This document shows, one piece after another, positions 180-40,596 of a DNA stretch of 64,000 nt; the stretch's first letter is position 1; every line of letters begins with the position of its first letter. Source of the stretch: Buttiauxella selenatireducens (GTDB lineage Bacteria > Pseudomonadota > Gammaproteobacteria > Enterobacterales > Enterobacteriaceae); NCBI RefSeq assembly GCF_031432975.1, contig NZ_CP133838.1, forward strand, positions 310,001 to 374,000, given 5' to 3'. Under the pieces are notes generated by a model. That model worked only from the letters and a program-made list of their open reading frames with translations. It had not been told where the DNA came from and made no database searches. The translations under genes and the position numbers were made by a program.

Positions 180-274
180 TGGCGGAAGATCACAGGAGTC
201 GAACCTGCCCGGCACCGCTGGCGGCACCAACTGGAGTTGAAGTCCAGCCGCCTCACCGGAGACGACGATCTTCC
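180..274 (-). tRNA. selC: tRNA-Sec (UCA anticodon), selenocysteine tRNA
   Basis: Read on the minus strand this is a 95-nt tRNA with the extended acceptor stem GGAAGATC pairing with GATCTTCC, an encoded GCCA end, the anticodon TCA at complement 238-240, the TTCGA T-loop and the very long variable arm typical of tRNA-Sec. It decodes in-frame UGA with SelB, after serylation and conversion by SelA. Relative to the E. coli sequence as I recall it, the variable arm differs at two positions, but the eight-pair stem still forms using G-U pairs. Its 3' end faces the AT-rich fragment at 1-165. Confidence 0.97.
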
Positions 275-37116: not shown

Positions 37117-38736
37117 TTAAATCTTCGGCCCAGCACTAACAAGCGCTGCCCCCGCAGGGGTGTCGGTGTATTTCTCGAAGTTTTCGATAAACAACGTAGC
37201 CAGTTGCTCGGATTTTTCCTGCCACATTTCTGGTGATGCGTAAGTGTTCCGTGGGTCCAGGATATGGCTATCAACGCCTTCCAGTTCTGTTGGAACAGCA
37301 AGGCCAAAGATTGGCAGCGTGAAGGTTTCGGTGTCGTCCAGAGAACCATCCAGAATGGCATCAATAATCGCGCGCGTATCTTTGATAGAAATACGTTTGC
37401 CGGTGCCGTTCCAGCCGGTGTTAACCAGATAAGCCTGAGCACCCGCCGCTTGCATGCGTTTCACCAGCACTTCTGCATATTGTGTCGGATGCAGAGACAA
37501 GAATGCAGCGCCGAAACAGGCTGAGAAAGTCGGGGTGGGTTCAGTCACGCCGCGTTCAGTACCCGCCAGTTTAGCGGTAAAGCCCGACAGGAAGTGGTAC
37601 TGCGTTTGATTTGCCGTCAGACGGGAAACCGGAGGCAGAACACCAAAGGCATCAGCGGTCAGGAAGATAACTTTGTTGGCGTGACCCGCTTTAGAGACCG
37701 GTTTAACGATGTTATCGATATGGTAAATCGGGTAGGAAACACGGGTGTTTTCGGTTTTGGAACCGTCATCAAAATCGATAGAACCGTCATCGCGAACGGT
37801 TACGTTTTCCAGCAGTGCATCACGGCGAATCGCGTTAAAGATTTCCGGTTCTGCTTCTTTGGATAAACGAATGGTTTTCGCGTAGCAACCGCCTTCAAAA
37901 TTGAACACGCCGTCATCGTCCCAGCCATGTTCGTCATCGCCAATCAGGCGGCGTTTTGGGTCGGTAGATAGCGTAGTTTTGCCGGTGCCGGACAGACCAA
38001 AGAACACCGCCACATCACCTTTCTCACCGACGTTTGCCGAGCAGTGCATAGAAGCAATGCCTTTCAACGGCAGCAGGTAGTTCATGATAGAGAACATGCC
38101 TTTCTTCATTTCGCCGCCGTACCAGGTCCCGCCAATCAATTGCACGCGCTCGGTCAGATTAAAAGCGATGAAGTTTTCAGAGTTCAATCCCTGCTCTTTC
38201 CATTGTGGGTTAGTGCATTTCGCACCATTCATCACCACAAAGTCAGCTTTGAAGGTTTCTAACTCTTCGTCAGTTGGACGGATGAACATGTTCTTAACGA
38301 AATGAGCCTGCCAGGCCACTTCGGTAATAAAACGTACGGAGAGGCGGGTATCCGCGTTAGCACCGCAGAAAGCATCAATAATAAAGAGGCGTTTGCCAGA
38401 GAGTTGTTGGGTGACGAGTCCTTTCAGATGCTGCCAGGTTTCTTCGCTAAGCGGTTTATTATCGTTTTTACCCTCGCCAGTGTCTGCCCACCAGAGGGTA
38501 TCGCGCGTCGTGTCGTCACGGACAATGTACTTATCTTTCGGGGAACGGCCGGTAAAAATACCGGTATCAACAGCAATCGCACCGAGGTTTGTTTCTATGC
38601 CGCGCTCAAAACCTTGCAGGTTGGGATTGAGTTCCTCGCGGTACAACGTGTCGTAATCAGGGTTATAAATCACTTCACTTGCGTCATGAATTCCATAAGC
38701 CTTGAGATCTTGCGGGGTTATGCCTTTAACTCGCAT
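37117..38736 (-). CDS. pckA: phosphoenolpyruvate carboxykinase (ATP)
   Basis: This 539-residue cytoplasmic enzyme (540 in E. coli) converts oxaloacetate and ATP to phosphoenolpyruvate, the main entry to gluconeogenesis from C4 acids. The P-loop [11 protein letters not shown] and the following DDEHGWDD metal-binding region are intact, as is the [13 protein letters not shown] segment. The start ([11 protein letters not shown]) follows AAGGAG. Convergent with envZ; the region beyond its start lacks yhgE, which lies there in K-12. Confidence 0.98.
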
Positions 38737-39080
38737 TTCACTGCTCCTTAGCCAATTTGTACTGCTTAATATTGTAGGGTTGTTTATGGGTTGTTAACCG
38801 CGACACTTATCATAGATTTGAGCATCCACTCGAATCCATATAGCGGAAAACGCTGTGAAGCGAGTCGCAACGGGGTGAGAGTATGGCAGGAAATGCTGGC
38901 TCGGCAGGGAAAATATTCTGAATATGTTAAAAAATAGTGCGATTAACGGACGAGGTGTGAGCGAGAGCGCATTCGTGTGCAAATGATGAAACACTTTGAG
39001 TCTGAATGCCTCACTCCGGCTGTCTCTTAGTCACATCTTTGAGACAAGCATGGGTTGTTTATGTCGGAAGCGGTGAAGTT
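38737..39080. other. pckA upstream region (344 bp)
   Basis: This stretch must hold the pckA promoter on the minus strand. No gene is supported. The open frames here lack ribosome-binding sites and known relatives. I could not place a CRP site with confidence, although pckA is catabolite-controlled in E. coli. It runs into the long inverted-repeat element from 39081. Confidence 0.5.
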
Positions 39081-39640
39081 TCCGTTCACCCGAAGCCTTT
39101 CGATATATGCAGTCACCGAACCGGTGAACGTCATAGGGGAACCGTCGCTCCCCTATGGACCCCGACTCCCGGCAAATAAATCGCCGCTACGCGGTAAACA
39201 CCGTTTTTCACCCAACATTCAGGGTCGTTCGCGATTCGTTCCCGACGATCGCTCTCTTTCGCCGCTCCCGGCGGCTCAACCCCGACTGAAGGGCAAAAAA
39301 CGGCGCGATTTAAGCCGGACCCAAAGTCAACGTCAAAACCTAAGTTCAAAAGCCGAAACGGTTTTGACCTTGTCCCCGGTATAAATTGCCCCAGTGTTCC
39401 CCATAAGTCAGGGTGGCGTGGTCGGGAACCACGCCAGTGAGCGTGGTCGGGAACCACGCCAGTGAGCGATCGTAGGGAACGAGTCGCGAACGACCCTGAA
39501 CGTTGGGGATAAGCTGGGGTTTACCGCGAAGCGGCAATTTAAAACCGGGCGCCGAGGTCGCCAGGAGGATGGCGTAATCCTCCTGGCACGTTCACCGTTA
39601 ACGACGGTTACAGAGATAATCAGTCGCACGGGTGAACGGA
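39081..39640. repeat. long mirror-image multi-hairpin element
   Basis: About 560 bp form one imperfect inverted repeat centred near 39350-39360. Matching blocks include TCCGTTCACCCG with its complement at 39629-39640; GGGTCGTTCGCGA (39222-39234) with TCGCGAACGACCC (39484-39496); GCGGTAAAC with GTTTACCGC; and, at the centre, GTCAAAACC (39332-39340) with GGTTTTGAC (39360-39368). Each arm also folds on itself: GTTCACC...GGTGAAC, then a second hairpin whose stem differs between arms (CATAGGGGA/TCCCCTATG at left, GCCAGGAGGAT/ATCCTCCTGGC at right), then a third (CGCCG/CGGCG at left, GGCGTGG/CCACGCC at right). No protein gene is supported, and the open frames across it are by-products. It occupies the yhgE position. 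Confidence 0.85.
39416..39465. repeat. 25-bp tandem duplication inside the mirror-image element
   Basis: The unit GCGTGGTCGGGAACCACGCC plus AGTGA occurs at 39416-39440 and again at 39441-39465 without change. Each copy is itself a hairpin. The left arm has a single, different hairpin at the matching place, so the duplication is probably recent and shifts the symmetry axis of the outer arms relative to the centre. Confidence 0.93.
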
Positions 39641-39661
39641 AAACCGGTGAAGCAAACAGAT

Positions 39662-39717: not shown

Positions 39718-40596
39718 TCAATGAACCTGAGGATCTGCCGGGGAGGCGTTGTTGCGGATCTCAGCGATGTCCATGGAATTGAACACGTAATGGTTGCCGC
39801 AATAATCACAGTTCATGTCGATTTCACCTTCGTCTGCAATAATGCTGTTTACTTCTTCATCAGGCAGAGTTTTTAGTGCATCGGCACAGCGTTCACGTGA
39901 ACACGTACATTTAAATTCGACCGTCTGCGGATCGTAAAGCGTCACTTCTTCTTCGTGGTACAAGCGCCACAGCACATCGTTGGCCGGTAACGTCAACAAC
40001 TCTTCAGCCTTGATGGTTTCGGTCAGTGCTGCCAGGTGATTGAAATCATCTGCCTGAGCATCTTGTGCTGGCAGAACTTGCAACAGCATGCCGCCTGCAG
40101 CAGGTTTGCCTTCAACATCGCCGGTGCGGATGAACAGGCGCGTCGGTAACTGCTCGGAACGTAAGAAGTAATCTTCCAGACACGCTGCCAGAGTATCGCC
40201 TTCAAGCCCTACGACGCCTTGATAGCGCTCGCCTTCAGCTGGCGTAATCGTGATCACCAGATAGCCGTTGCCCACCAGAGTTTTCAAGTCCGCATCAGCA
40301 GGGATTTCACCTTTAAAACGCGCAACACCGCGCATTTGCTGGTTATTATTGCCGTTAATCACTGCCAGGCTCATTGGGCCGTCACCCTGCAATTGCACGG
40401 TAATATCGCCGTCAAATTTTAGGGTTGCAGTCAGCAGGCTGGTGGCGACCAGCAATTCACCGAGAATCGTTTTAACGGGAGCAGGATAATCATGGTTTTC
40501 CATGATGTGCTGCCAGGTGTCGGAAACCGTTACCAGTTCACCGCGCACGGCGAAGTTTTCAAACAGGTAACGATGTAATTGGTCTTGTTGAGCCAT
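39718..40596 (-). CDS. hslO: redox-regulated chaperone Hsp33
   Basis: This 292-residue holdase, the same length as in E. coli, is activated when oxidation expels zinc from four C-terminal cysteines. The motifs CTCSRERC and CDYCGNHY provide Cys232, Cys234, Cys265 and Cys268. It is the last gene of the igaA-yrfG-hslR-hslO run, 24 bp after hslR. Confidence 0.97.

Follow-up and report, generated by a model that had tools for sequence, protein, structure and literature searches.

The gap between two minus-strand open reading frames of Buttiauxella selenatireducens (37117-38736 and 39718-40596), named pckA and hslO by a first-pass annotation from the sequence alone, is occupied by a long imperfect palindrome. 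The question raised by this locus is what kind of element might keep the same hairpins at matching places of its two arms with different letters in the stems. Positions are those of the window, that is, the whole 64,000-nucleotide stretch of DNA that was analysed.

Architecture of the palindrome

The palindrome (39079-39642) is built of two units of about 240 nt that stand head to head, each read outward from the centre; the left one measures 239 nt and the right one 266 nt, the latter including a 25-nt tandem duplication. Its features, including an outer end beyond the palindrome, are the following:

39020-39035, plus strand: left outer end CTGTCTCTTAGTCACA, of a kind kept on both sides in copies such as L054 and L055
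39079-39092, plus strand: left terminal inverted repeat TTTCCGTTCACCCG, 100% complementary to 39629-39642
39080-39318, minus strand: RNA unit of the left arm, read from the centre outward; 239 nt, with an RNA-model match on the minus strand at 39080-39193
39084-39129, minus strand: left unit terminal helix GTTCACC/GGTGAAC (helix 10), overlapping the terminal repeat
39132-39157, minus strand: left unit covarying 3' hairpin CATAGGGGA/TCCCCTATG (alignment A2, helix 9)
39231-39252, minus strand: left unit GGA hairpin 2, loop CGGGA (from fold and loop alignment)
39261-39275, minus strand: left unit GGA hairpin 1, GCCGC[CGGGA]GCGGC (from fold and loop alignment)
39319-39375, no strand: central spacer separating the two units at their 5' ends, with no sigma-70-like site by consensus scan
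39376-39641, plus strand: right RNA unit, 266 nt including the 25-nt duplication (RNA-model match at 39525-39641, plus)
39416-39465, plus strand: right unit GGA hairpin 1, GCGTGGT[CGGGA]ACCACGC, in two tandem 25-nt copies
39466-39487, plus strand: right unit GGA hairpin 2, loop AGGGA (from fold and loop alignment)
39560-39587, plus strand: right unit covarying 3' hairpin GCCAGGAGGAT/ATCCTCCTGGC (alignment A2, helix 9)
39590-39637, plus strand: right unit terminal helix GTTCACC/GGTGAAC (helix 10)
39629-39642, plus strand: right terminal inverted repeat CGGGTGAACGGAAA

The first-pass annotation had described one long imperfect inverted repeat, in which a structured unit of roughly 200 nt stands twice, head to head, and this description holds: the arms (39177-39270 versus 39448-39541) are 81% complementary over 94 nt and their outermost 14 nt are 100% complementary. 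The three sets of stems that it had placed at matching positions were recovered as well, i.e., GTTCACC/GGTGAAC in both arms (39084-39090 with 39123-39129, and 39590-39596 with 39631-39637), the differing stems of the 3' hairpins, and GCCGC/GCGGC (39261-39275) versus GCGTGG/CCACGC (39416-39434). It had missed the tandem doubling of the 25-nt GCGTGG hairpin in the right arm, which repeats the latter stem at 39441-39459 and occurs only in the window copy, the 10 other aligned copies of the same genome having a single hairpin. The Tn5-like end at 39020 lies outside the bounds that it had given, and the right-hand partner of this end was not found in the window copy.

The predicted RNA fold of 39079-39642 (-315 kcal/mol, z -17.6) was not equalled in stability by any of 100 dinucleotide shuffles, and the arms folded singly also lie below their shuffles (z -5.8 for the left one and -4.5 for the right one). 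A coding element was set aside: inside the palindrome, open reading frames of at least 100 aa number only two (108 and 109 aa), both of them mechanical. A promoter of its own was rejected too: one consensus site (9/12, with a mean of 0.3 expected) was not accepted as real, and the consensus promoter scan of the window element yielded no convincing promoter and no terminator at all. As for known Rfam families, the window copy has none at gathering score and gave chance-level matches only (E up to 10); at gathering level the whole window yields a single match, to a selenocysteine tRNA gene at 184-274 (minus strand).

Dispersal and mobility

The search for further copies that the first-pass annotation had proposed revealed relatives in many genomes. 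In the same genome, the DNA search gave 11 loci, of which six are full-length and the other five partial or rearranged, and an RNA model of the 3' module of the unit (117 positions, built from 41 sequences) gave 19 matches, corresponding to three single units and eight head-to-head pairs, in one of which the second member scores a weak 36 bits. Run with stricter filters and capped counts per genome on 99 genomes, the model matched 23 of them, that is, all 11 Buttiauxella, 12 of the 49 other Enterobacteriaceae and none of the 39 outside the family; the 3' module is present in 13 of the 81 genera sampled, every one belonging to the Enterobacteriaceae.

A set of 123 distinct units was collected, 62 assigned to group A (most other genera) and 61 to group B (Buttiauxella, Cedecea and Enterobacteriaceae RIT693). 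Group A units were fetched mainly by the pattern GCGGCGATTTN{2,5}GCCGGGAG, lying outside the GGA hairpins, in a scan that also gives chance matches in other phyla; at least 87 pattern places were examined, and at least two of them (L188, L197) are due to chance. Among the matches listed, units occur in Enterobacter, Leclercia, Phytobacter, Silvania, Citrobacter, Lelliottia, Pluralibacter, Pseudescherichia, Entomohabitans, Superficieibacter, Cedecea, E. coli and E. albertii. By direct blastn about 110 nt of the window element find a match, at 75%, in 17 of 5426 E. coli genomes, and the unit of an E. coli strain (L143) has matches in 5375 of the 5426, at a median of three places. In eight units (L101, L177, L205, L052, L073, L075, L079 and L202) there is an additional module of some 77 nt, mostly ACAAAAWTG..GGA..CAWTTTTGAACARCGCTTGCG..., which often adds GGA hairpins (e.g., an ATGGAT loop in L177) and looks like a second exchangeable part.

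An origin from plasmids or phages was rejected for the window element, which has no match in the plasmid and phage collections. A group A unit gave no match in the annotated phage collection and matched 28 records of the plasmid collection, several of them chromosome-sized; in IMG/VR, three of the five stretches with the pattern (L211, L212 and L213) carry a full group A unit.

The hslO-pckA gap itself is polymorphic, the insert being present in three and absent from nine of 12 Buttiauxella genomes. The filled gaps are those of the genome under study, of a second genome of the species and of G009, whose insert may be the same insertion as the window copy or another one. In the second genome (G099, locus L215) the same insert lacks its central 382 nt, a loss that is expected of long palindromes. 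Among the nine empty gaps, those of G002, G005 and G006 hold a CCCTCTCCC...GGAGAGGGAG palindrome at the place of the insert, the right flank of the window copy retains CCCAGGAGAGGGAG, and the remaining six empty gaps have other sequences at that place. In G007, G008 and G004 (L220, L222 and L223, respectively) another insert lies nearer to pckA; it measures about 125 nt, has a CTTACTTGAGTAAG core, is a candidate ERIC-like element, and was not seen in the other nine Buttiauxella gaps.

Several copies end in CTGTCTCTTATACACA or near variants, and many others have no recognisable ends; we take ends of this type, as well as the left end CTGTCTCTTAGTCACA, to resemble those of Tn5/IS50. Both Tn5-like ends are found at seven distinct sites (eight rows) passing the end filter. 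The target-site duplications that the first-pass annotation had suggested looking for differ from site to site: the 9-bp duplication is complete (9/9) at L054 and nearly so (8/9) at one site found in two species, and at the other five sites the ungapped duplication reaches only 2-5/9, none being clear. The PF14706 transposase was found in none of the 12 Buttiauxella genomes, with a positive E. coli control, and a Tn5-type autonomous partner in the genus was rejected on this search. The polymorphic gap and the duplications support the mobility of the element, the missing transposase and the five sites with no clear duplication count against the Tn5-like route, and we infer the machinery: the spread was likely brought about by a Tn5-like transposase acting from outside. 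The non-autonomous mobile element that the first-pass annotation had named as one of its options is in agreement with the dispersed copies and with the filled and empty gaps of close relatives.

Covariation and paired GGA loops

Two alignments of sequences picked for diversity were used, A1 with 36 of the 58 group A sequences in the length range (62 in all) and A2 with 39 of the 54 group B sequences in the length range (61 in all). In A1, 62 pairs are paired in 96.5% of the cells and both sides have changed in 33 pairs and 192 cells, against a mean of 51.7 cells (sd 6.4) in shuffles, none of 500 reaching the observed value, and at most 36 cells in slid structures; in A2, 62 pairs are paired in 98.2% of the cells and both sides have changed in 29 pairs and 300 cells, against 82 cells (sd 9.9) in shuffles, again with none of 500 reaching it, and at most 34 in slid structures, the shuffle tests being inflated by relatedness, which the slid controls retain, and the structure being derived from the same alignments. 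On a lesser measure, the number of further pair types, one of 500 shuffles equals A2. The 3' hairpin exhibits the most both-side changes (10 of 11 pairs in A2 helix 9 and nine of 11 in A1 helix 12), and long-range helices, with some 100-180 columns between their two sides, covary too. The first-pass annotation had read changed stems with preserved pairing as the mark of selection on structure, and the strong covariation of both alignments bears it out. It had also conceded that the idea should be dropped if neither other copies nor significant covariation were found; since copies occur in many genomes and covariation is strong, this ground for doubt falls away.

When apical loops are limited to 9 nt or less and their stems to three pairs or more, the 123 units have 546 of them, of which 223 contain GGA, versus 129 of 1375 in dinucleotide shuffles and one of 544 on the opposite strand; two or more GGA loops occur in 93 of the 123 units versus 17 of 369 shuffles. 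In A1, that is, in most relatives from other genera, the loop reads ANGGAN in hairpin 1 of all 36 sequences and in hairpin 2 of 33 of 36, the first position and GGA being fixed or nearly so and the two N varying; these statistics come from alignment columns, a count by hexaloop pattern being circular at A and GGA because the pattern itself fixes them. In group B, U[CGGGA]A and C[CGGGA]G loops predominate: in A2, GGA is retained in 37 of 39 (hairpin 1) and 39 of 39 (hairpin 2), with C where group A has A (39/39 and 38/39, respectively). The window has four CGGGA loops, counting the tandem pair, and one AGGGA, and no two AYGGAY hexaloops. The two GGA are spaced nearly constantly: in group A their distance is 27-29 nt for 57 of the 62 units, and in group B it is 26 nt for 40 of the 61; 18 of the 61 have no two scored GGA pentaloop hairpins and three are spaced otherwise, one of these being the right arm of the window (25 and 26 nt).

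These features recall the sites of CsrA. According to the accessible text of PMC7652899, the SELEX consensus of CsrA is RUACARGGAUGU, the RsmE structure contains an ANGGAN hexaloop, dual-site binding occurs with sites 10 to 63 nt apart (optimum above 18), and SELEX prefers stems of four or fewer pairs. The paired loops of the window units are spaced within this range; many unit stems exceed four pairs, against the SELEX preference. The genome under study encodes csrA and CsrB, the canonical CsrB being a separate locus. In its accessible main text, PMC5694010 does not name aqpZ, putP or yohI. On fold and loop evidence we suggest that the module probably binds CsrA, with less certainty for the branch of the window, as U[CGGGA]A and C[CGGGA]G loops prevail there and C thus stands at the position for which CsrA favours A.

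A different idea, which we regard as possible although rather unlikely, is that of a transposon-type DNA repeat whose hairpins serve the DNA only (as a cruciform, for the binding of a transposase or a nucleoid protein, or as a terminator-like insertion niche), the RNA being irrelevant. This would fit the terminal inverted repeats, the dispersed and polymorphic copies and the GC-rich cruciform potential that Li et al. noted for TRIP1 (PMC10888264, accessible text). It would also fit the frequent convergent settings: in a count that is based on mechanical open reading frames (both flanks for 96 of the 123 units, with 24 units overlapping a kept frame) and has no genome-wide baseline, 34 of 56 group A units lie between convergent genes, three between divergent and 19 between co-directional ones (eight sense and 11 antisense, i.e., no strand preference), and in group B 16 of 40 are convergent and six divergent. 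However, GGA loops all but confined to one strand of the unit, free loop positions that follow the CsrA rule in group A, and covarying distant helices count against a role in DNA only, since each of the three would be unexpected for a simple cruciform or an end-recognition site. The orientation data fit a 3'-end niche without choice of strand; in such settings RNA would likely arise by read-through from a neighbour.

The same convergent settings might point to a processing or stability structure at mRNA 3' ends, or the GGA hairpins might be the site of another RNA-binding partner, as the deviation of the window branch from ANGGAN could suggest; such roles without CsrA appear unlikely to us, given that the loop rule and the spacing of the relatives both match CsrA. 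Lastly, template switching in quasi-palindromes, which would copy one arm of a hairpin onto the other and so keep the pairing with no selection on structure, appears very improbable to us. It would suit the 3' hairpin, where both-side changes are most frequent and the arms lie close together, and one copy carries a tandem-duplicated hairpin; yet the enclosing long-range helices change on both sides (A2 5-185, 12-169, 16-149 and 18-147; A1 21-129 and 22-128), which switching within hairpins does not easily explain, and the stems change while the loops remain GGA.

We conclude that the element is a dispersed, structured RNA module, probably borne by a transposon. The fuller reading that we prefer, at about even chances, is that the insert, in which a conserved RNA fold stands twice, head to head, works at the RNA level as a CsrA site or decoy and has been spread in a Tn5-like manner. 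In such a scenario, the outside transposase would spread the insert, transcription would come from neighbour read-through or from an unseen promoter, and each transcribed unit would present two GGA hairpins whose spacing suits one CsrA dimer. The unit, holding that dimer, might act as a decoy or as a 3'-UTR site of the neighbouring gene, and each copy of the insert would add one more CsrA site or decoy. In the minimum-energy fold of a two-arm transcript, arm pairs with arm and the second GGA hairpin is buried, so that part of the sites may be hidden, which counts against a simple sponge in Buttiauxella.

Relation to described elements

The closest described relatives are the TRIP1 repeats of E. 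coli, reportedly described by Rudd in 1999, and the Rfam family TwoAYGGAY. The first-pass annotation knew of no described family that fits, and held that a match to one would refute its reading; the absence of a fitting family stands for the window copy, which matches neither of them directly, and does not stand for its relatives, which include TRIP1 itself and two Pluralibacter units recognised as TwoAYGGAY.

According to the accessible text of Li et al. 2024 (PMC10888264), TRIP1 repeats are intergenic, measure 146-273 bp, have a stable double-Y RNA fold and occur in 96% of 6725 E. coli genomes, with an unclear role; CsrA is absent from that text. The window units are likewise intergenic, with a predicted stable branched (double-Y) RNA structure. 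The E. coli B copy L232 lies between lysO (ybjE) and aqpZ, that is, at the published place of TRIP1a (PMC10888264, accessible text). It has the group A architecture with two ANGGAN loops, and its terminal helix is made of other letters (GCGCTCCTT/AAGGAGCGC versus CGTTCAC/GTGAACG) with the pairing kept; we identify it as TRIP1 by place and fold. By blastn it has no match to either window arm at E 0.01 (84 rows to other units), and the window and TRIP1 are linked in sequence only through intermediates such as L088. The described TRIP1 copies are single units, whereas the window holds a head-to-head pair.

TwoAYGGAY (RF01731) was reported in 2010 from human gut samples, gamma-Proteobacteria and Clostridiales by Weinberg et al. 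(PMC2864571, accessible text) and predicted in 2014 to be a CsrA-binding RNA by Gardner and Eldai (PMC4333381, accessible text). Its core has two AYGGAY-type hairpins, and the two Pluralibacter units pass its gathering score; they are two of 16 other-genera loci, the other 14 scoring below it. In G036, matches to the TwoAYGGAY core, some of them sub-gathering, lie head to head and directly adjoin matches to the 3' module. The Rfam model matches 16 of the 99 genomes, 10 over the cut-off and some outside the Enterobacteriaceae; it matches none of the 11 Buttiauxella genomes and, even at E 10 and 5, neither an E. coli unit nor a Silvania one. Unlike the element studied here, TwoAYGGAY is presented neither as mobile nor as palindromic in the accessible text of PMC2864571 and PMC4333381, and the window loops are mostly CGGGA. 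Four Enterobacterales genomes (G029, G036, G057 and G070, one of them outside the family) have seven to 21 TwoAYGGAY matches, which suggests that this Rfam family is itself a dispersed repeat.

The TRIP1 repeats, TwoAYGGAY and its predicted CsrA binding were already known; new are the link between the two, a mobile form that is built head to head and bears Tn5-like ends, and the Buttiauxella branch, which the Rfam model misses. In the PMC full-text literature, searched mostly at title level, we found no paper joining TRIP1, TwoAYGGAY and the Buttiauxella units, nor one treating such repeats as mobile elements with CsrA sites. We can tentatively speculate, well short of even odds, that all three represent one superfamily of mobile CsrA sponges, a transposon lineage carrying paired hairpins as cargo, in which the decoy load on a global regulator might grow or shift by transposition and the tandem hairpin of the window might be a step toward a CsrB-like array. 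If the reading preferred here were correct, TRIP1 would gain a candidate role in E. coli, TwoAYGGAY would be tied to enterobacterial repeats, and mobile DNA would be able to spread the sites of a global post-transcriptional regulator.

In comparison with Tn5/IS50-type MITEs, the element lacks a PF14706 transposase in the 12 genomes and many of its copies have no recognisable ends; it resembles them in the CTGTCTCTTATACACA-type ends of several copies and in the 9-bp duplication of its clearest copy. CsrB/CsrC and RsmX/Y/Z are dedicated sRNA genes. Like the window units, they carry repeated GGA hairpins, which in their case sequester CsrA (PMC7652899, accessible text). The element of the window differs from them in having no convincing promoter and in consisting of dispersed copies, each unit with two to three GGA hairpins.
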